Source: Rugalucina vietnamica
Lineage: Eukaryota > Mollusca > Bivalvia > Lucinida > Lucinidae
DNA: 64,000 bases
Assembly (NCBI GenBank): GCA_964017185.1
Contig: OZ024873.1
Coordinates: 52,066,760 to 52,130,759, forward strand
Reading direction: 5' to 3'
A program made the position numbers and the translations under genes. Below the pieces are notes generated by a model. The model searched no databases and was not told the origin of the DNA. It worked only from the letters and a program-made list of their open reading frames with translations. Positions 16,101-60,600 of this stretch are shown one piece after another. Positions within the stretch are counted from its first letter, which is position 1, and every line of letters starts with the position of its first letter.

Positions 16101-19100
16101 CCTTCGGCTCAGGTGAGCTAAAAAGCTAGAAACCCTTTGTACAACTATAACATTTCATAAATTTTAAAGAAAGAGGCAGCAGTTGCATTACGATGGGTAT
16201 GGTCAAAATACCTGTACTTACGGATGTTGATGGAGCCACCACAGCATGTCAATAGTAATGTCGGCGTCCGAGAACTTCTGATATGGCCCCGTATCTTTCA
16301 CCTCCAATGGTTTTGAGTTACAACACAAGTGCTCATGGGCCATCGTCTTCCCCGCATCTTGTGGTCTGATGGTACCCAACACTGGAAATGTTAGCACTTT
16401 GTTACATTGACACCTAAGATGCACAACATTACGGAAACTTGCCCATGCAATATATAGAGAATTTTTCAAAAGCAAAAATTGAAAATTTCATTGGGAAAAC
16501 TTTGATATTTTTAGTAATTTTGCTCAAAACATTGATTGTGGGTACACCAAGGCTGTTCTAACGAGTACCCGCAATCTATACAAGAAAAGTAGGTATACAC
16601 CTGCATTCCCCAGTTTTACTATATAAAAGTGGAGTTTAAGGAGGTATTCATAGCAAGGACATGTTTTCCTGTTCAACTTTTTTACACTTTTAACATCCAA
16701 GGGTTTAGAGACTATGTTATAGCACAGATGTTCTTGGGCCATTGTCTTCCCCTCGTGTTGAGATGACACCCAACACTGCAAATGTTTAAGCTGTCTTACT
16801 TCAAACATTACAATATTCCTCTACTTTTTATTTGCTTTTCCAATTTTGTGAAAATATTTTACCAGTATTCCGGCAATTTGTCCCAAAATTTCTAAAATTT
16901 ATAATACACTATAATTTCTATAAGCAATGTTATAAACAAAGTGGAGGGGTTGCACAGTTAACACTTAAAGCACTAAATACAACATATGCAAAATAGCTAA
17001 AATAAATTAGTAATCTGGCTTATCATGAGCTCTCGTCTGAGCCTAATGCCTGTTTGCCTTTTAGCCTCTGAATTTTCAATCACAAACAATTTTAATAAAG
17101 TATTCTATTAACTTCCATAACTGCTTCTTGGCATGTTAAGGGTTAACTCTGGTAATTACTTTATACCTTTTTCAATTATACCAAATCATTAATATGCAAA
17201 ATAAAAGATCATTAATATGCACAATCAGGAATAGTTAAAATGTTTGAGCATGTGTATGCATATAAGCCGAGACATGAAAAAAACGGTCTTTGTGATTTCC
17301 GACCATGTCCGTCACAAATCGGCCTGTACAGTCACAGAAAAAGGCTAGAAGCTTAAGATTTTGGATTTAAGAAGAGGAATTGTGCTATCCGAGTAGCGAA
17401 AATAAAGGGGCTGATCCGTTTCGAGGTTACCGTGAAGCTGGTCTGCGCCTTTGTTTTCGCCTTGGCAAAAATCCAGTTTTCTCATGACGCGGCTCATATG
17501 GTAGATGGAAATCTTACTTCACAAAATTAATGTTATTGGCTTTACACTTTGGCCATTTCAAGTCACCTTCGGTAGCTGTTCAGCTCATTAACAGAGCTAG
17601 ACCTGGTCCCAAGACGATTGTTGCCATTGAACATTTATAAGCAGGAAAAATTTCAGGTTTTGGTGATTTAGACTGAAAATTTCAATTTATTTTGTCTATT
17701 TCAATATTTATGGACAATGTAAATAAATTTCAGTCTCAGTTGAGTTGAACATAAAAAAAGTTTTATAACCTCGGGGCCTGGTCCAAAGGTTATTAAACTT
17801 TTTTTCATGCTCAACTCAGCTGAGACTAAAATCATTCCTGCTCATAAATGGTAAAATGCCAACAATAATTGTTGTAAGCATTTTAACATTTATAAGCAGG
17901 ATAAACTAGAATTGTCAGAGAATCTGACTATAGCCCCGCTTCTCAGCTTTTTTGCAGGGTGAAAAAAACAAATTTGACAGGTAACTATCACAAGCTAGAT
18001 CTCGTCAATATTGATGCACATACAAAATTTGGTCTGATTATGTCAATTCGTTCTCAAGATATTGAGCGGAGACGAAATTCTGACCTCAATAACGGGCCAT
18101 AACTCCGTCAAAATTTTGCGAAAAATTATGGGTAATAATCCCAAGCTAGATCTTGTCAATGATGATGTGCATACAAAATTTGGACGGATTCTGTCAATTC
18201 GTTCTCAAGATATTGAGCGGAAACGAAATTCTGAAGTCAATCAAGGGCCGTAACTACGTCAAAATTTTGTGAAAAATGACGGGCAACAATCCCAAGCTAG
18301 ATCTTGTCAATGTTGATGTGCATACAAAATTTGGTTGGATTCTGTCAATTCGTTCTCAAGATATTGAGCGGAAATGAAATTCTGATGTCAATCAAGGGCC
18401 GTAACTCTGTCAAAATTTTGCGAAAAATGACGGATAATAATCCCAAGCTAGATCTTGTCAATGATGATGTGCATACGAAATTTGGTTGGATTCTGTCAAT
18501 TCGTTCTCAAGATATTGAGCGGAAACGAAATTCTGACGTCAATCAAGGGCTGTAACTCCGTCAAAATTTTTGCGAAAAATGACAGGTAACAATCCCAAGC
18601 TAGATCTAGTCAATGTTGATGTCCATACAAAATTTGGTTGGATTCTGTCAATTCATTCTCAAGATATTGAGCGGAAACGAAATTCTGACGTCAATCAAGG
18701 GCCGTAACTCCGTCAAAATTTTGCGAAAAATGACGGGTAATAATCCCAAGCTAAATCTTGTCAATGTTGATGTGCATACAAAATTTGGTCGGATTCTGTC
18801 AATTCGTTCTCAAGATATTGAGCGGAAATGAAATTCTGACGTCAATCAAGGGCCGTAAATCCGTCAAAATTTTGCAAAATATGACGGGCAACAAGCCCAA
18901 GCTAGATCTTGTCAATGATGATGTGCATACAAAATTTGGTCGGATTCTGTCAATTCGTTCTCAAGATATTGAGCGGAAACGAAATTCTGATGTCAATCAA
19001 GGGCCGTAACTCCATCAAAATTTTGCGAAAAATGACGGGTAACAATCCAAAGCTAGATCTTGTCAATGATGATGTGCACACAAAATTTGATCCGATTCTA

Positions 19101-19798
19101 TCAATTCGTTCTCAAGTTATTGAGCGGAAACGAAATTCTGACGTCAATCAAGGGCCATAACTCTGTCAACATTTTGCAAAAAATGACGGGCAACAATCCC
19201 AAGCTAGATCTTGTCAATGTTGATGTGTATACAAAATTTGGTCAGATTCTGTCAATTTGTTCGTAAGATATTGAGCGGAAACGAAAGGTTCACGGAATGA
19301 CGGAATCACGGAACCACGGAAGGACAGGGTGAATCCAGTATAGCCCCACTTTTCCAAAGCGGGGCTATAATAATTTGTAAACTTTTGTGTTCTTAACATC
19401 AAATTTCCACTGATTTTGGCTAGTTCAAATTAATGAGGAATTAAAAAAGTTTTATAACCTTGGGCTCTTTTGAAAGCTAGGGACTAAACCGCTCCAGTCA
19501 AACCCAGGCCATTCCCTGGTATGATCTTGTCAGATTCTGACTTTTTTCACCAGTTATACTTAATTTGAGATTCTCATCATACAATTTTCTTTAACTACAC
19601 ATCAACCTCATTATGCTGCACCTCACTGTAATGCAGTTTTCATTATGAAACAGCCATGTCGTAGCTCCTCAATTGCAAACTAAGTCACATTAATGTAACA
19701 TTTCACTTACAACACCTTTTGCTTCTGTGGACCCCAAAGGTAGCGTTATATGTACCTGTGAGTATCTTTCCTGACAGATCTTCTTTGTTCTTAGCCAT
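7032..19798 (-). CDS. PTER: Phosphotriesterase-related protein (PTER-like N-acetyltaurine amidohydrolase family), complete, 8 coding exons
   Basis: Joining 19756-19798, 16222-16381, 13673-13745, 12593-12704, 11880-12032, 11431-11595, 8178-8395 and 7032-7166 on the minus strand gives 1059 nt: 352 residues plus a stop, close to the 349 of human PTER. All introns are GT-AG and every exon phase fits. The protein is a TIM-barrel metal-dependent hydrolase. Expected binuclear-metal ligands are visible: H30 and H32 in AHEHL, E172 in IIGEIGC, H204 in IHPGR, H233 in MSHMD and D301 in GQDIH. The fourth ligand position is Glu, as in vertebrate PTER, where bacterial phosphotriesterases have a carboxylated Lys. 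Vertebrate PTER has been reported to hydrolyse N-acetyltaurine; that role here is inferred by homology. Expected to be cytosolic: no signal peptide. A 5' untranslated exon upstream is likely because an acceptor-like ttttcag precedes 19825. Introns are large because of inserted repeats. Confidence 0.93.
7200..7258 (-). repeat. S1 SINE 3'-end fragment
   Basis: Holds the S1 tail (gaggcttaacgtcccagtca, tttcagccat) flanked by tttgtttg. The tRNA-like head is missing. Confidence 0.6.
7345..7520. mobile_element. M3 MITE
   Basis: Arms caggtcaacctcatt and aatgaggttgaactctg are inverted, with tatctttggggtcca inside. Related copies at 19585-19754 and 52125-52392. It lies in PTER intron 7. Confidence 0.65.
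7955..8143 (-). mobile_element. S1 tRNA-derived SINE
   Basis: Minus-strand copy with head gcgcggtggcgagagtggtt, a degenerate box B ggttcaatccc, the block tccttgagcaagacac and tail gactgggacgtt. Its 5' end stops about 35 bases short of the PTER exon 7 donor. Confidence 0.75.
8178..8395 (-). CDS. PTER: PTER exon 7
   Basis: Longest exon, residues 236-308, with [25 protein letters not shown] and [13 protein letters not shown]301 is the last metal ligand by homology. Acceptor ttccag, donor gtaggt. Confidence 0.93.
8400..8626. mobile_element. M1 MITE, degenerate
   Basis: Retains gcgaaaacaaaggcgcagat and the inverse tttgttttcgc, with most of the inner palindrome deleted. It lies 5 bases beyond the PTER exon 7 acceptor region. 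Confidence 0.7.
8744..11300 (+). mobile_element. R1-family element, long copy
   Basis: Starts ccagaggaccaatggtcctg, with acgctcacctgag nearby, and ends ggctcaggtgagctaa. The interior has R1 modules with ttgaccttgcc, ggtcaaggtcat, catgccaagtttcaaaat, tagccatggcggccatcttg and tttggctttgattggcc, at about 8930-9270, 10490-10810 and 10870-11220. It is itself interrupted by a TIR element (9270-10401). No transposase frame. Confidence 0.75.
9270..10401. mobile_element. TIR element nested inside R1
   Basis: The inverted ends ggctgagacacaatcaagg (from 9271) and its complement finishing ctcagcc near 10399 bracket 1.1 kb unrelated to R1. The R1 module resumes with tatgtatatagccctgggg. No coherent protein was found inside. 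No flanking duplication could be fixed. Confidence 0.65.
11431..11595 (-). CDS. PTER: PTER exon 6
   Basis: Residues 181-235, with [20 protein letters not shown] and LLMSHMD. H204 and H233 are metal ligands by homology. Acceptor ctacag, donor gtaagt. Confidence 0.93.
11596..11879. other. PTER intron 5, nothing further seen
   Basis: Short intron without a recognised repeat. Confidence 0.5.
11880..12032 (-). CDS. PTER: PTER exon 5 (metal-bridging Glu)
   Basis: Residues 130-180, with [16 protein letters not shown]172 occupies the position of the carboxylated lysine of bacterial phosphotriesterase. Acceptor ctccag, donor gtaaat. Confidence 0.93.
12110..12297. mobile_element. M1 MITE, one-sided
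   Basis: Keeps the centre-to-right half (gctggtgagtgcttttgttt ... ttctcaagacatggctca); the left arm is mostly gone. In PTER intron 4. Confidence 0.65.
12308..12592. mobile_element. M2 MITE
   Basis: Left outer part with atacccctttatgccc and actggggtatac. Centre gttagaaccgcctcgctgag and inverse. Right arm gcaaaaatgttaaaaatatc to gcataggcaggtttttgtaa. Ends at the PTER exon 4 donor. Confidence 0.8.
12593..12704 (-). CDS. PTER: PTER exon 4
   Basis: Begins after ttctcag with [18 protein letters not shown] and ends [10 protein letters not shown] before gtacag. These are the NGGG and GVHII.G.G segments of the family. An M2 MITE abuts its donor side. Confidence 0.92.
13001..13256. mobile_element. 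M1 MITE with duplicated inner stem
   Basis: Full outer arms. The inner stem gatcagcttcgcagttactg occurs twice in succession, giving an extra half-palindrome. Confidence 0.85.
13395..13637. mobile_element. M1 MITE, near-perfect inner palindrome
   Basis: gatcagcttcgcggtaaccg and its inverse are intact; outer arms gagccgcctcatgag / cacgaggcggctc. It ends just downstream of the PTER exon 3 donor. Confidence 0.88.
13673..13745 (-). CDS. PTER: PTER exon 3
   Basis: Short 73-nt exon between ttttag and gtatgt, reading [17 protein letters not shown] and then MEEMNFYK. It aligns with the vertebrate segment AYSHKENLQLN and the following ELLYFK. Completed codon at the 5' side, phase 0 at the 3' side. 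An M1 copy ends 35 bases downstream in the intron. Confidence 0.9.
13758..14025. mobile_element. M2 MITE, reference-quality copy
   Basis: Centre gtgggtacacgttaggcgag and the inverse cggttctaacgtgtacccac; flanks gctccaaaacatag / ctatgttttgagcaaaaat; outer arm with gcatgggcatgttttcgtaa. Confidence 0.85.
14220..14474. mobile_element. M2 MITE
   Basis: tatgaaaacatgcccatgca to gacatgttttcatgat, opposite orientation to the 13758 copy. The centre is shortened to gtgggtacctaggcggttct. Confidence 0.82.
14589..16119 (+). mobile_element. R1-family element with tandem internal modules
   Basis: Starts accagaggaccaatggtcct after a C-run (14572-14581). Three head-to-tail modules of about 400 bp begin near 14790, 15230 and 15690, each with ttgacc(t/a)tgc, ggtcaaggtcatccca, tagccatggcggccatctt and tttggctttga. 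It ends in a gacggacgac microsatellite and ggctcaggtgagcta. In PTER intron 2. Confidence 0.8.
16021..16070. repeat. GACGGAC microsatellite-like run
   Basis: Repeats of gacggacgac just before the R1 3' terminus. Similar shorter runs precede the R1 ends at 11228 and 39768. Confidence 0.8.
16222..16381 (-). CDS. PTER: PTER exon 2 (metal-binding HxH motif)
   Basis: Acceptor ttccag, then residues 15-68 including [19 protein letters not shown] and a Trp-rich end (MLWWLHQHP), then donor gtaagt. Phase 1 in, phase 2 out. A decayed second copy lies upstream at 16687-16820. Confidence 0.92.
16430..16672. mobile_element. M2 MITE
   Basis: attacggaaacttgcccatg to aggacatgttttcctg, with gtgggtacaccaaggctgtt in the centre. 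It sits exactly between PTER exon 2 and its decayed duplicate. Confidence 0.82.
16687..16820 (-). pseudogene. Decayed duplicate of PTER exon 2
   Basis: On the minus strand the sequence after ttgcag at 16775 starts TGTTGGGTGTCATCT and contains gggaagacaatggcccaaga and cttggatgtt. This parallels exon 2 (TGTTGGGTACCATCA, GGGGAAGACGATGGCCCATG, ATTGGAGGT). It has a small deletion that shifts the frame and a Q for the first metal-binding His, so it cannot encode the motif. Homology also covers about 45 bases of the upstream intron (aaatgtt ... acattac), so this is a segmental duplication and not chance similarity. Confidence 0.75.
16821..17258. other. PTER intron 1, AT-rich, nothing recognised
   Basis: No repeat or exon identified; aatcattaatatgca is repeated once near 17190-17220. 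Confidence 0.45.
17259..17500. mobile_element. M1 MITE
   Basis: catataagccgagacatg to catgacgcggctcatatg. The inner palindrome is mutated on its left side (gatccgtttcgaggttaccg). Confidence 0.82.
17560..17915. mobile_element. M4 palindromic repeat
   Basis: Two inverted halves around 17780: aacatttataagcaggaaaa and gttttataacctcggggcct against the reverse order at 17800-17900. A related copy is at 26140-26320. The 151-bp array element starts immediately after it. Confidence 0.65.
17929..19369. mobile_element. TA-flanked element filled by a 151-bp tandem array
   Basis: Ends tagccccgct (from 17931) and agcggggcta (to 19367), each bordered by TA, suggest a Tc1/mariner-type non-autonomous element. 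Almost the whole interior is tandem repeat. A short non-repeated tail (cacggaatgacggaatcacg) precedes the right end. Confidence 0.65.
17985..19290. repeat. Tandem repeat, 151 bp x about 9
   Basis: Units begin near 17991, 18142, 18292, 18443, 18594, 18745, 18896, 19047 and 19198 at caagctagatcttgtcaatg. Each contains acaaaatttggtcggattct, tcaattcgttctcaagatat, tgagcggaaacgaaattctg and gggccgtaactccgtcaaaa. Open frames recur because 151 is not a multiple of three and each unit lacks stops in one frame; they are not genes. Confidence 0.95.
19585..19754. mobile_element. M3 MITE at PTER exon 1 donor
   Basis: acatcaacctcattatgctg to ggaccccaaaggtagcgtta. The right end lies 2-6 bases from the exon 1 splice donor at 19755. 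Confidence 0.6.
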
Positions 19799-42779: not shown

Positions 42780-44430
42780 CAGGGCCTTCAACAGATATTT
42801 ACTTAGCATCGTTGCCTAGCTGGGTCCTATTTCTTGGGTTAAGTATTAGTTTCAATGTATTAAACTCATTATCTTTACATAACTTTAATTTATCAATATC
42901 AAATTCTTTTAGTAATCTATCCCTAAATGTATCGTAAGTTTTACAAAATAAAATAAAGTGTGATTCACTTTCTACTTCATTGCAAAATTTGCATATTCTT
43001 TCTTCTCTTGGGACTTTGGGTCTAGAATACCTGCCTCTTTCAATATTTAGTTTGTGAGAACTCAGTCGGAATTTAGTGATTATAGAGGTACAGGTTTTTT
43101 TTTTTATTTTTTTTATTTGCTATTACTGCAGCTGGTGTTGTGCCGTGTGGCGGCCCTAAAAAGTCTCCCCGTACATCATCCATAGTGCAGATTATATTTT
43201 TCTTTTGATCCTTTGGGATCAGTGACTATATTTGGAGTATTTCAAATATATTGTTCGTTAAGAATCATCTTCTTAACTGTATTTTGATTATTTGGCTCCT
43301 TTGGGATTATGAGTCTTTGATTTGGACTACACAGATGCAAATTATTGAAATTGCAGCAAAAATGTCTGGCTTTCACTGCCAGTTTTGTAAAGGGTCACTG
43401 ATGAAGGTTCATTACCCGAAATTGTACAATATGGCCCATCTTTTCGCTTTGAATGTTTTACTGCTTCCAAAGGATCTAACAATTATTTTTATTTGCTTAA
43501 GATTCAATTTTTAATAGTCTGGGACATTATCATTGAAGTTAAAAACAGTAGAATATAATTTAAGTTTACTGTCATCATGTAGTCTTAAATTGTTTAAATT
43601 ATTTTTGTTTGTTGCATATAAAATTTAGTCAACAATTTATCAATTGTTTCAGAGTCTAAGAAATTAAAATTTTCTTTAATACCAACAGATCTTAATGTTT
43701 TTTCTAGGCAAGAATACCAAGATTTGTATTCATTGATATGTAAGTCCTGATCAGTTTGAAATGCTTTTGATAGTAACCTATTGGTAGGTCAAGTCCTTAG
43801 TCTTTCATAGTATTTAAACATAAGTTTGATAGCAAATAAAACAATTGGGGTACGCAGCATTTCACAACGACTTGCCAGGTTTGAAGAATTGCGGGTTATG
43901 CCTAAAACAGACTTACAAAACTTATGTTGCAGTTTTTCTGTTGGAAGGAGATCTATATTATTCAGATTTATTACATAGTCAGCTAACCAAACCTCACTTT
44001 CATATGTAACAATGGGTCCGATCAAAGAATCAAAAAGTTTTGAGCTTAGTTTTGTAGGAAATTGGGAAAAATTCGAAAGTTTTTTCTTTAACGAGAACAT
44101 TGCCTTTAAAGCCTTACTGTATAAATCATCTGCCGCATGCTTAAGATTTCCATTATAAAAAAGTGTTATTCCTAGATATATATAGGTATCTGTTACATCA
44201 AGTTTATGTCCCTGATATATAAAATTATAGTTTTCATACTTTCGCCTGCCATTGCTGAATATCATTATCTTTGTTTTGTTTAAATTTACATCTAGTTTCC
44301 ATTCTTGACAGAAGTGTCCCAATTTATTTAAACAGTTTTGTAAAGCATTACTGGTTTCAGATAACAAAAGTAAGTCATCTGCAAAGAGGAGGTAATTTAA
44401 ACGAGAATCACCCAAGAGAAATGGCCTTAA
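42780..44430 (-). pseudogene. Non-LTR retrotransposon (LINE) RT and C-terminal domain, truncated and interrupted
   Basis: On the minus strand, YLLFADDLLLLSET (RT catalytic box), KLDVNLNKTKIMIFSNGRR, YIYLGI, then a long thumb/connection region to about 43515. After an inserted segment (43086-43515) the protein resumes with FRLSSHKLNIERGRY, a Cys-His knuckle CKFCNEVESESHFILFC, and NTLKLILNPRN. The order FADD, thumb, CxxC...HxxxxC is typical of CR1/L2-like LINEs widespread in invertebrates. The N-terminal endonuclease and fingers are missing (5' truncation near 44430). Not functional. Confidence 0.85.
43086..43515 (-). mobile_element. Retroposon-like insertion in the LINE
   Basis: On the minus strand it ends in an A-rich tract (43097-43120) where the LINE frame resumes. 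Contains ggatccaaaggatc-type inverted bits and tttcgggtaatgaacct near 43405-43425, as in LINE 3' UTRs. Source family not identified; no duplication fixed. Confidence 0.45.
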
Positions 44431-44505
44431 TACAACCACCTCAGCACACAAAAAGAGGAACAATGTTCCGTATTTATGTTCACTCATTAATGTCAAATGG
44501 AATCA

Positions 44506-45635: not shown

Positions 45636-45819
45636 AACCTGTAACGGGATAGTCTCCCTTGTAGAATACGTTGGTGCAACGTATTAGCGGCATATTAGCG
45701 GGTAGTAATATGCAAATTAGAAACTCGAAACTTTGTGATTAGAGTAAGTGTTAGGTATATAGCGCAATAAACCACCCTTGGTGGATGAGCATGCTTTTCC
45801 ACCGACGGGGTTTCTGTAA

Positions 45820-46022
45820 TGTAACGGGATAGTCTCCCTTGTAGAATACGTTGGTGCAACGTATTAACGGCATATTAGCGGGTAGTAATATGCAAATTAG
45901 AAACTCGAAACTTTGTGATTAGAGTAAGTGTTAGGTATATAGCGCAGTAAACCACCCTTGGTGGATGAGCATGCTTTTCCACCGACGGGGTTTGCTGTGG
46001 CTCAGCTCGGCTGTACGTTACA
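45820..46022 (+). repeat. TRIM-1 5' LTR
   Basis: 203 bp, TGTAACG...CGTTACA. A TATA-like ggtatatagcgc sits about 110 bases in. Confidence 0.88.
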
Positions 46023-46127
46023 TTTGGTGGCAGCGGTGGGATGATGACAACTGCCAGAACGGAGTTGCCTTACCCATGTAGTCCCCAGGCCAAGACTCGG
46101 GGCGAGTCTTCTCGGAGGGGGAAGTAA
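46023..46127 (+). promoter_or_regulatory. TRIM-1 internal region: tRNA-Leu primer site and purine tract
   Basis: Two bases after the LTR comes TGGTGGCAGCGGTGGGAT. It is complementary over 18 bases to the 3' end of animal tRNA-Leu(AAG), which ends ATCCCACCGCTGCCA plus CCA. Just before the next LTR stands cggagggggaag, a polypurine tract. These two are the only LTR-element functions in the 105 bp. Confidence 0.8.
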
Positions 46128-46330
46128 TGTAACGGGATAGTCTCCCTTGTAGAATACGTTGGTGCAACGTATTAGCGGCATATTAGCGGGTAGTAATATG
46201 CAAATTAGAAACTCGAAACTTTGTGATTAGAGTAAGTGTTAGGTATATAGCGCAGTAAACCACCCTTGGTGGATGAGCATGCTTTTCCACCGACGGGGTT
46301 TGCTGTGGCTTAGCTCGGCTGTTCGTTACA
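46128..46330 (+). repeat. TRIM-1 3' LTR
   Basis: 203 bp, nearly identical to the 5' LTR; differences are in the last 25 bases (cttagctcggctgttcg). Confidence 0.88.
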
Positions 46331-46722: not shown

Positions 46723-46726
46723 TTAC

Positions 46727-47064
46727 TGTCACAGGGGCGGAAAAAGAACGTGGCCCGATCGGGACTCGAACCCAGGGTCTCTCGCTTACCGTGCGAGCAC
46801 TCTACCACTAAGCTACCGAGCCACTCGATCGACCGGTTACATTTTCCCCCTGCTTAATTGGATTTGTCCCCGAATCTGCTCGGAACCATGACGGAACCGA
46901 CGAGACAGTCTCTTTCAGGTTGCTGCTCGCAGCCCGAGCACGGACCCACACTAAGCCACCAAATGTCACAGGGGCGGAAAAAGAACGTGGCCCAATCGGA
47001 ACTCGAACCCAGGGTCTCTCGCTTACCGTGCGAGCACTCTACCACTAAGCTACCGAGTCTTACA
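46727..47064 (-). mobile_element. TRIM-2: miniature LTR element with a tRNA-like unit in the LTR, target duplication TTAC
   Basis: Read on the minus strand: 5' LTR 46964-47064, 122-bp internal region, 3' LTR 46727-46841. LTRs begin TGTAA and end TGACA. Internal part starts TTTGGTGGCTTAGTGTGGG (primer-site position and same TTTGGTGGC start as TRIM-1) and ends GCAGGGGGAAAA (purine tract) directly before the 3' LTR. TTAC occurs at 46723-46726 and 47065-47068. Over their shared 94 bases the LTRs differ at about two positions, so the insertion is fairly recent. No coding capacity. Confidence 0.83.
46752..46825 (-). promoter_or_regulatory. tRNA-like pol III unit inside the TRIM-2 LTR
   Basis: Acceptor arms GTGGCTC and GGGCCAC pair over 7 positions with one G-U. 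Box A is TAGCTTAGTGG and box B is GGTTCGAGTCC. The anticodon arm CTCGC-ACGGTAA-GCGAG has the 7-base loop with GGT in the anticodon place. No CCA or discriminator context and C in place of the invariant U33, so it is a tRNA relic used as part of an LTR, not a working tRNA gene. The second LTR keeps boxes A and B but lacks the acceptor 5' strand. Confidence 0.75.
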
Positions 47065-47690
47065 TTACAATGCAATATTTCACTTTTGAGAAAAAAGTGT
47101 CAATGTTAAGAAAATAGACCAGTGTTTTTTGTTCAATATTGCGATTGCTGCACATATGGAATAAAGTTGAATCGAAAAATTGACATTTTGATAATAATTC
47201 TGTTATAAAAATGTGGAAATGTTTATTTAAGCTCAGCTTAATATTTTACCTCATGTAAAATGGAATGGATTGGAATTTAAGTAACAGAGTGGTTCCGTTC
47301 CGACTCGATGAAATTCCAAACCTTATCCCAAAAAATAGGCATTGTAGGAATCAACACTCCTTGGCATTTCAGATACCTTCAGCAAGTACAAATACAAATA
47401 CATGGTGTGGTATTGTCATTTGACGTTTCACCCAGTAAACTATTCTGATTCTGAATGCAATGGGCCGAAGTGTCCAGAAATTAGTTTTCTCTGCTTTTAG
47501 ATACACTAGTCTCTATCAATCGGATGTTTGTTCAAGCGTTTAAATGTTGACACCTGTGATCAATATTTCATTTACAGGTAAAATATATTCCTTTTTTGGT
47601 TAATAAACGTCATATAGATTTAGCTATCAGTGGGTGTTGCTAGATAACTTGTCTAAAACTTACCTCTGATAATGTTTTTTTTTTCGCAGA
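47065..47690. repeat. Spacer with interspersed repeat at about 47270-47460
   Basis: gtgtggtattgtcatttgac, then gtttcaccc and agtaaactattctgattc, is the inverse of 27175-27235. No gene. Confidence 0.45.
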
Positions 47691-51034: not shown

Positions 51035-51246
51035 GTTTGTTTGTTTGTTTGTGTTGAGGCTTAACGTCCCAGTCAACAATTTTTCAGTCATGTCGGGACG
51101 GAGCCAACGCTTCCTGGGTTTAACCAGTACTGTAGGGAGTAGATGTGCCTTGCTCAAGGACACAACACGGTGACGCTTGTGGGGTTCGAACCCAGGACCT
51201 CTCGATTCGGAGTCCGACGCTCTACCACTACGCCACCGCGCTCCCT
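51035..51246 (-). mobile_element. S1 tRNA-derived SINE, best copy
   Basis: Minus strand: gcgcggtggcgtagtggtag with box A, box B ggttcgaacccc (51184-51194), gtgtccttgagcaaggcaca, the tail gttgactgggacgttaagcc and an acaaacaaac end. Same family at 7955 and 60957. Confidence 0.85.
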
Positions 51247-57653: not shown

Positions 57654-60600
57654 GTCTGTTACTTATTAATTTTGTGAATACAGTAGTGCTAAGATGAAAG
57701 GTAACATCCTTGTGCACATTGAGTGCACTAGTAAGTGCACTAATTACTTTAAAATATTGCAATTAAAGCAGTAAATGCACAGCTAATCAGCGCCTTTGCT
57801 TTTGCTACACGGATTGTACCATTTCCCTCACCCTTCATAGTTTCAAGGACTGTAAAATGCTCCTACTGCAGACTGATCGATGGATATATTAATATAGCCT
57901 TAAGATGTCATTATAATATAAGCCACGATGCAAAAAAAAAGAGTCTTTGGGGTTTCCAACGAGGTCCGACGCAAACCAGCCTGTACAGCCACAGAAAAAT
58001 GCTAGATGCTTGAAATTTTGGATATAAGTAGAAGAGGGATTGTACTAACCGAGTAGCAAAAACAAAGGCGCTGATCAGCTGTGCAGTCACTGGCTGATCT
58101 ACACCTTTGTTTTCGGATAAGTAAAAGTCCGGTTTTCTCATGGCGTGGCTTATATAAAATAAAATTGCACGATAATTTTATACAACTGTTCTTGTGACAG
58201 AATTCTTTAATCAGCTTATGGTTACTCTTTGATATATTCAGGGATCATATCGGGCGCTATTCTCCAACTACGAGATGTTTTCTGCTTATCCTGTCTGTAC
58301 CAAGAGTTAGTTATCAGTGCCATGCTCATGGGGGCTGTACTGGGCTCTCTGATTGGAGGTAGGAATATCATTTGAGCCATCTTGTGAGAAAACCAACATT
58401 GTGGTTTCCAAACAGGTCCGACATAAACCGGCCTGTACAAGCACAGAAGATGGCTATAAGCTTGAAATTTTGGATTTAGAAAGTAGAGGAACTGTACTGT
58501 CCATGTAGCGAAAACAAAGGCGCTGATCAGCTGTGCAGTTACTACACAGCTGATGTAACTGCACAGCTGATCTGCGTCTTTGTTTTCGCTTATGCAGATT
58601 GTTGGTTTTCTCATGAGGCGGCTCATTTATTGCTTTTTGCATTAAACAAGCCATGGTATTGCTTCATGTTAATGTGGTCAGTTCATAACAAAGTCAAATT
58701 AATTGGGTTATGATAAATCAGACTCCTTGTAAGAAGAAAGATGATTGACTCAGTATTGCCACATTTAAATAATTTAAAGATTAGAATTATTATCATCAAC
58801 GTTAGAGGCCATTATGAAAACAAATCTGTTTCTACAATATACAGATTTTTCTTGAAAGTGTAGAAATGCAAATAAATTTTTAGTCAATTTTTTTATAATA
58901 TTCTTATTTCAGCCATAGAACCGCCTTGCCAAAATGAGTACCCAAAATCTATGACTTAGATCAAAAATATGAAAAAATGTCTACCCCTGTTTACCCCAGT
59001 TTTACTATAAAGGGGGTATACATTTCCAGGACATGTTATCCTGATGCTTATCTCATTTCAGGCTTCCTGATAGACTGGTATGGCAGAAGACTGACCATCA
59101 TCTTGAATTCTGTGGTGTTCCTTATTGGTGCACTCATTCTAGGTCTGACACCAAACTTCCCTGTATTGGTGAGTCATCATATACTCTGTGGTGTTCCTTG
59201 TTGGTGCACTCATTCTAGGTCTGACACCAAACTTCCCTGTATTGGTGAGTCATCATATACTCTGTGGTGTTCCTTGTTGGTGCACTCATTCTAGGTCTGA
59301 CACCAAACTTCCCTGTATTGGTGAGTCATCATATACTCTGTGGTGTTCCTTGTTGGTGCACTCATTCTAGGTCTGACACCAAACTTCCCTGTATTGGTGA
59401 GTCATCATATACTCTGTGGTGTTCCTTGTTGGTGCACTCATGCTAGGTCTGACACCAAACTTCCCTGTATTGGTGAGTCATCATATACTCTGTGGTGTTC
59501 CTTGTTGGTGCACTCATTCTAGGTCTGACACCAAACTTCCCTGTTCTGGCGAGTCATTGTGAACTCTGTAGTATTCCTCATGGGTGCACTCATTTTAAGT
59601 CTGACACCAAACTTCCCTGTCCTGATGAGTCATTGTGAACTCTGTGGTGTTCCTTGTAGGTGCACTCATTCTAGGTCTTACACCAAACTTCTCTGTCCTG
59701 GTGAGTCATTGTGGACTCTGTGGTGTTTCTTGTAGGTCTGACACCGAACTTCCCTATTCTGGTGAGTCATCTTGAACATTGTAGTATTCCTTGTTGGTGC
59801 ATTCATTCTAGGTCTGACACCTGGTGAGTCATTGTGAACTCTGTGGTGTTCCTTGTAGGTGCACTCATTCTAGGTCTTACACCAAACTTCTCTGTCCTGG
59901 TGAGTCATTGTGTACTCAGTGGTGTTCCTCATTGGTGCACTCATTCTAGGTCTGACACCAAACTTCCCTGTTCTGGTGAGTCATCATGAACTCTGTAGTA
60001 TTCCTCGTTGGTGCACTCATGCTAGGTCTGACACCAAACTTCCCTGTTCTGGTGAGTCATCATGAACTCTGTAGTATTCCTCGTTGGTGCACTCATGCTA
60101 GGTCTGACACCAAACTTCCCTGTTCTGGTGAGTCATCATGAACTCTGTAGTATTCCTCGTTGGTGCACTCATGCTAGGTCTGACACCAAACTTCCCTGTT
60201 CTGGTGAGTCATCATGAACTCTGTAGTATTCCTCGTTGGTGCACTCATGCTAGGTCTGACACCAAACTTCCCTGTTCTGGTGAGTCATCATGAACTCTGT
60301 AGTATTCCTCGTTGGTGCACTCATGCTAGGTCTGACACCAAACTTCCCTGTCCTGGTGAGTCATCATGAACTCTGTAGTATTCCTCATTGGTGCACTCAT
60401 TCTAGGTCTGACACCAAACTTCCCTGTTCTGGTGAGTCATCATGAACTCTGTGGTGTTCCTTGTTGGTGCACTCATGCTAGGTCTGACACCAAACTCCCT
60501 CTCCTGGTGAGTACTGTTAGGCAGCTAACATTGCGAAAACATGCCCATGCAATATTCATTTTTTTCTTGCTCTTGGTAAAAGTACAGTCTTTCATTCAGG

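Follow-up and report, generated by a model that had tools for sequence, protein, structure and literature searches.

A Helenus-type miniature LTR retrotransposon with a tRNA-like unit in its LTRs in the bivalve Rugalucina vietnamica

A 64-kb stretch of Rugalucina vietnamica DNA (the window) contains a miniature LTR retrotransposon of 338 bp, located on the minus strand at positions 46727-47064, whose LTRs each carry a tRNA-like unit. We interpret it, with a probability of about 0.93, as a TRIM of the Helenus type, i.e. a non-autonomous LTR retrotransposon without genes. An earlier, sequence-only reading had already proposed a TRIM with a tRNA-like pol III unit in the LTR; ARAGORN, Rfam and the copies detected elsewhere in the genome support that identification, and the sequence of the unit suggests a role in pol III transcription. 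The same reading knew of no described example, a statement superseded by the description of Helenus (TRIMp3) as TRIMs with tRNA-derived sequence in their LTRs, reported from fungi, a plant (a lycophyte) and six animal phyla in the sections used here of Kojima 2024 (PMC10886601).

The element is bounded by two copies of the target-site duplication TTAC, read directly from the sequence (46723-46726 and 47065-47068). Alignment of the LTRs to each other, and comparison with copies elsewhere, define a 3' LTR of 115 bp (46727-46841, minus strand; TGTAAC...TGTGACA), while LTR alignment delimits a 5' LTR of 101 bp (46964-47064, minus strand) without 14 bp near its start. The LTRs start with TGTAA and end with TGTGACA. 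They have in common a 94-nt block, 97.9% identical (BLAST E 1e-42), and in a global alignment over their whole length they differ by 3 mismatches and a single gap of 14 bp, located in the 5' LTR. Between them lies an internal region of 122 bp (46842-46963, minus strand), recognized by alignment and found in the same position in many copies. It is closed, directly before the 3' LTR, by GCAGGGGGAAAA (46842-46853, minus strand), judged by its sequence a fair polypurine tract (PPT); the position of the primer binding site (PBS), TGGTGGCTTAGTGTGGG (46945-46961, minus strand), lies 2 nt in from the end of the 5' LTR and holds the tRNA-Ile type PBS of the family in imperfect form. All frames overlapping the element are shorter than 120 aa. 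The minus-strand LTRs, the internal region, the PBS and PPT positions and the TTAC duplication were all found, by sequence and alignment, where the sequence-only reading had placed them. Its 338-bp unit holds for the window copy but not as the family length: undamaged copies elsewhere measure 352 bp and consist of two 115-bp LTRs in the order LTR-internal-LTR. Most printed copies have CTCAG both in the PBS and in box A of the two LTRs; in the window copy these sites read CTTAG.

Two further readings of the internal region were tried and rejected. The first, a conserved RNA structure, was dropped because the folding of the region is close to that of its shuffles (z -0.71 and -1.09; 38 and 27 of 200 shuffles equal or better it). 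The similarity of the start of the region to a second, decayed tRNA-like unit is weak, being matched by 31 of 5000 dinucleotide shuffles, and overlaps the PBS.

The tRNA-like unit is complete in each LTR (3' LTR, 46750-46822; 5' LTR, 46987-47059; both minus strand), and ARAGORN calls both as tRNA-Thr with anticodon GGT. The tRNA covariance model that had been suggested as a check (Rfam RF00005; gathering score 29) gave 51.9 bits for the 3' LTR and 36.3 bits for the 5' LTR; besides these two units, no Rfam match above the gathering score was found in the 64-kb window. The box B previously read as GGTTCGAGTCC is present in this form in the 3' LTR only, that of the 5' LTR differing by one change. 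Behind each unit, on the minus strand, a T5 run follows: the one in the 3' LTR (46741-46745) is a putative pol III terminator, and the one in the 5' LTR (46978-46982) would have to be read through by pol III. Comparison of copies places the unit at a fixed position inside the LTR. The anticodon GGT is kept in 56 of 61 ARAGORN calls from the 33 loci submitted, and the downstream T5, at LTR positions 97-101, in 51 of 52 LTR copies; TTTT occurs in 0 of 24 internal regions.

The element could be a TRIM and yet owe its transcription to pol II and a different part of the LTR, with the tRNA-like unit as a passenger. Since the pol III role is deduced from sequence, here as in the published Helenus work (PMC10886601), this alternative keeps some weight, but we consider it unlikely. 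Only about 43 bp of the LTR, 19 before the unit and 24 behind it, would be available to such a promoter. In addition, between-copy variation, calculated on small numbers, is 0.8% in box A, 1.1% in box B and 0.6% in the T5 stretch, against 3.5% in the first 19 bp of the LTR; the corresponding values for the last 14 bp and for the tRNA-like unit as a whole, from equally small numbers, are 1.1% and 1.4%.

A different account of why the unit stays intact is that the LTRs spread working tRNA-Thr genes. Complete cloverleaf calls with a T5 behind them would suit this, as would the seven bivalve families described by Kojima as able to encode tRNA-Thr (PMC10886601). The LTR units, at 51.9 and 36.3 bits, nevertheless score below a tRNA-Thr-AGT gene of the same genome, which reaches 72.3 bits, and for this reason are unlikely to be working tRNAs. 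Few if any eukaryotes, moreover, are known to have a nuclear tRNA-Thr with anticodon GGT, which also speaks against working genes. We therefore hold this account to be very improbable; the LTR unit is probably a promoter and not a working tRNA.

Copies of the element were searched in the assembly containing the window (1,089,854,562 bases in 47 contigs), along the lines proposed by the sequence-only reading, and many copies of the unit were found, single LTRs included. The 338-bp element used as query gave at least 56 matches, from 40 scored out of 766 first-look candidates, and the 115-bp LTR at least 48, from 40 scored out of 990; both counts are lower bounds, from samples that lean towards window-like copies. 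Together the searches left 60 loci, which correspond to 39 distinct places. Four are single LTRs, one of which (L037) runs on into the start of the internal region and is thus a cut copy. Tandem forms, e.g. LTR-int-LTR-int-LTR, and clusters of mixed orientation were also found. Exact element patterns were present in 0 viral contigs and in 0 contigs of bacterial or archaeal genomes.

Target-site duplications were evaluated at the 27 of 39 places where both outer LTR ends were available. The 12 places left out comprise 4 of mixed orientation, 1 ending in internal sequence and 7 with an incomplete outer LTR alignment, the window copy, whose own TTAC duplication was read directly, being among these 7. 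An exact 4-bp duplication surrounds the whole element in 19 of the 27 copies, and is absent from the other 8. For the same copies, the tests with 3, 5 and 6 bp gave 0, 0 and 1, and in a control of mismatched left-right flank pairings a 4-bp match occurred in 13 of 702. Two copies (L023 and L024) have identical flanks and represent one event, which brings the figure to 18 of 26; two others among the 19 (L004 and L057) lie in simple repeats, where a duplication match is weaker evidence. The duplication was found in 18 of 23 copies with an internal region versus 1 of 4 single LTRs, the remaining 3 single LTRs being without it. Two tandem arrays (L040 and L051) are each bounded by one duplication, and a third (L009) is not. 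The association of direct repeats with a 4-bp duplication, on which the sequence-only reading had made its proposal depend, was therefore not refuted by the copies.

Empty sites were searched by joining the flanks of 13 copies, the window copy and 12 others, all chosen for having the duplication. For six of them (L054, L013, L011, L014, L016, L028) sequences without the element were found in related repeats among the loci collected, i.e. paralogous repeats and not alleles, with 87.7 to 97.5% identity for the first match listed for each copy. They contain one copy of the 4-bp site, in some cases with a base substitution, and in the three alignments printed per copy the 10 bases next to the junction are free of gaps. 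These paralogous empty sites indicate that the mobile unit is the whole LTR element and not its tRNA-like part. The outer LTR pairs of 24 copies differ on average by 2.1%, from 0/115 (L002 and L047) to 7/115 (L025); at least some insertions are recent.

The possibility, earlier named as a potential refutation, that a SINE had inserted into each LTR was not borne out, the unit having a fixed place in the LTR and the duplication surrounding the whole element. Likewise, the idea that two tRNA pseudogenes or tRNA-derived SINEs lie by accident around an unrelated spacer, for which one could cite a SINE-like sequence in the window (51060-51240, minus strand) with a tRNA-like unit 78% identical to that of the LTR over 54 bp, is refuted by the dispersal of the whole 352-bp unit with fixed ends, by empty sites lacking the whole unit and by duplications surrounding it.

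The PBS of the family was examined in 44 distinct contexts caught by pattern in the loci, 17 of which read TGGTGGCTCAGTGTGGGT and 16 begin with TGGTGGCCAGTGTGG; the window PBS is a one-base variant of the former. The assignment to tRNA-Ile rests on one locus, L066 (C4:21176765-21176784 and following bases), which contains, on the other strand, the 3' half of a tRNA with a CCA end, the complement of which begins with TGGTGGCCAGTGTGGGGATC. Its anticodon loop, inspected by eye, appears to be of the Ile type (GAT), so that the locus would be tRNA-Ile-like; ARAGORN calls no tRNA at L066 because the 5' half is missing. This 3' end is fitted by the TGGTGGCCAGTGTGG form and by the copies with TGGTGGCCAGTGTGGGG. 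The TGGTGGCTCAGTGTGGGT form carries one inserted base that breaks the tRNA-Ile match, and so does the window copy. As an observation on L066 itself, the locus could have arisen when a mature tRNA-Ile primer was reverse-transcribed, as inosine would then have been copied as G. A self-made primer, in which the LTR's tRNA-like unit would pair with the internal region, was also considered and discarded, as 1188 of 5000 shuffles did as well.

The PBS 20-mer occurs, with at most 1 mismatch, at 11 places in the genome: five family copies (L069-L071, L075, L076), L066, three places resembling tRNA-derived SINEs (L067, L072, L073) and two other contexts (L068, L074). The last of these lies inside an LTR retrotransposon for which a longer stretch, L078, was read. 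The 5' LTR of this retrotransposon, 717 bp long, starts with TGTAACAG and ends with GGTTACA; the LTRs are 99.1% identical over the 684 bp compared, and TGTC is found on both sides of the element. The PBS, TGGTGGCCAGTGTGGGGGTC, has 20 nt identical to the five family copies listed above. A reverse transcriptase (E 3.5e-33) is encoded upstream of an integrase (E 5.6e-15), and a protease match stays below the cut-off. Reverse transcriptase before integrase is the order of Gypsy/Ty3 elements, not of Copia, and by domain order L078 appears to be a Gypsy-like element. It is a plausible helper candidate for the miniature element because the PBS, the TGTAAC start of the LTR and the 4-bp duplication are common to both; the likeness goes no further than these three features. 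The other context, L068, read in a longer stretch as L077, was rejected as a helper, its 9.9 kb containing two frames of at least 150 aa, both on the other strand. At positions 274-2087 of this stretch (C1:12705500-12715400), a PBS-like 20-mer is followed by TGTCACAGGGTATAGG, and short direct repeats are present, along with purine tracts before the same motif; these are possibly the remains of another small LTR element.

On these grounds a cycle can be proposed for the Helenus-type element. In the 5' LTR, the tRNA-like unit would direct pol III to begin transcription near LTR position 20, and the polymerase would sometimes read through the T5 just behind this unit; the transcript would then cross the internal region and end at the T5 of the 3' LTR. 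The LTR would accordingly be divided into U3 (positions 1-19), R (20-101) and U5 (102-115), and the resulting RNA of about 319 nt would begin and end with the same 82 nt (R), a requirement for strand transfer. Transcripts stopping at the first T5 would be short tRNA-like RNAs. A tRNA-Ile may prime reverse transcription of the longer RNA, and a Gypsy-type LTR retrotransposon may supply the enzymes both for this step and for integration with a 4-bp stagger. A T5 inside R should, on the other hand, halt most pol III transcripts within the 5' LTR. We tentatively suggest, as a possibility less probable than its opposite, that one promoter would in this way produce two RNAs, only the read-through product being a template for retrotransposition, in a host perhaps outside the molluscan orders listed for Helenus. 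If true, leaky pol III termination would have the role that the repeated poly(A) site has in ordinary LTR elements. With a Gypsy-type candidate helper having the same PBS in the same genome, the whole cycle would be testable there.

The analysis adds whole-genome copy evidence, in the form of 4-bp duplications, empty sites and tandem arrays, for LTR elements whose pol III promoter is of the tRNA type, and points to a candidate helper within the same genome. For annotation, each intact copy produces two tRNA-Thr calls which are probably not tRNA genes.

Other repeats were noted alongside the element. A second dispersed tRNA-like repeat (L062-L065; C17:17768715, C16:11514365, C1:83114836, C4:80821156) is called by ARAGORN as Arg-TCT or Thr-TGT; an upstream sequence with the TATAAATAGCACA motif is common to three of the four loci, a T run follows the unit, and in L064 the repeat is present twice, 339 bp apart. 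The repeat may represent a further element that carries a tRNA, or else a tRNA gene that has been amplified. Within the window, the sole match in a Pfam scan of six frames is a reverse transcriptase fragment (PF00078, E 5e-11) at 43789-44496 on the minus strand, probably derived from a LINE. Tandem or clustered repeats are found at 59098-60512 (steps of about 76 bp), 17970-19286 (about 151 bp) and 45636-46330 (180-308 bp).

Among known systems, tRNA-derived SINEs lack LTRs and use target-primed reverse transcription for integration. The element resembles them in its tRNA-like unit with boxes A and B, a putative pol III promoter, and differs from them in having two LTRs, a PPT, a fixed 4-bp duplication and empty sites for the whole unit. 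With biv-TRIM of bivalves, described as having terminal repeats of 202-218 bp, 77-80 bp of internal sequence, the PPT GGGGAGA and no canonical PBS in the parts of the article drawn upon (PMC6934838), it has in common the condition of a small LTR element without genes. The 115-bp LTR and the PPT GCAGGGGGAAAA set it apart, and the two printed primers of biv-TRIM (PMC6934838) match the 115-bp LTR at no more than 5 and 8 of 20 positions.

Plant Cassandra elements are likewise TRIMs whose LTRs contain a unit derived from a pol III gene and which form tandem LTR-internal arrays (PMC10886601, PMC7215508); according to Kojima, their transcription runs from the unit of the 5' LTR to the 3' LTR (PMC10886601). 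Cassandra LTRs carry 5S rRNA sequence, whereas the unit is tRNA-like here, and Rfam detects no 5S rRNA match in the window.

The closest correspondence is with Helenus. The published account, as far as the sections cited go, gives element lengths of 311-1263 bp and reports that the duplications of animal members are of 4 bp, that solo LTRs occur and that one family, LTR-11_DR, forms tandem arrays; bivalve families are assigned tRNA-Lys, His, Ile, Pro, Glu or Ser primers, Gypsy-157_CGi is a tRNA-Ile user, the helper is taken to be Gypsy, and pol III transcription is expected, without experiments (PMC10886601). The present family agrees in being a TRIM devoid of genes whose LTRs carry a tRNA-like unit, in having a PPT, solo LTRs and tandem arrays, and in its 4-bp duplication (TTAC in the window; 19 of 27 copies, versus 13 of 702 in the control); its 352 bp fall within the published range. 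A Gypsy-like candidate helper is a further trait in common with Helenus, and the tRNA-Thr-like unit one in common with seven of its bivalve families (PMC10886601). As to the PBS, copies with TGGTGGCCAGTGTGGGG fit the tRNA-Ile-like L066, and the window copy does so imperfectly; the form with an inserted base is not mentioned in the cited sections of the Helenus description (PMC10886601). The comparison, made with the published description, revealed no difference in kind, and the family may already be in Repbase. The element is thus a well-preserved member of the recently described Helenus kind, and opens no category beyond the one described in 2024.
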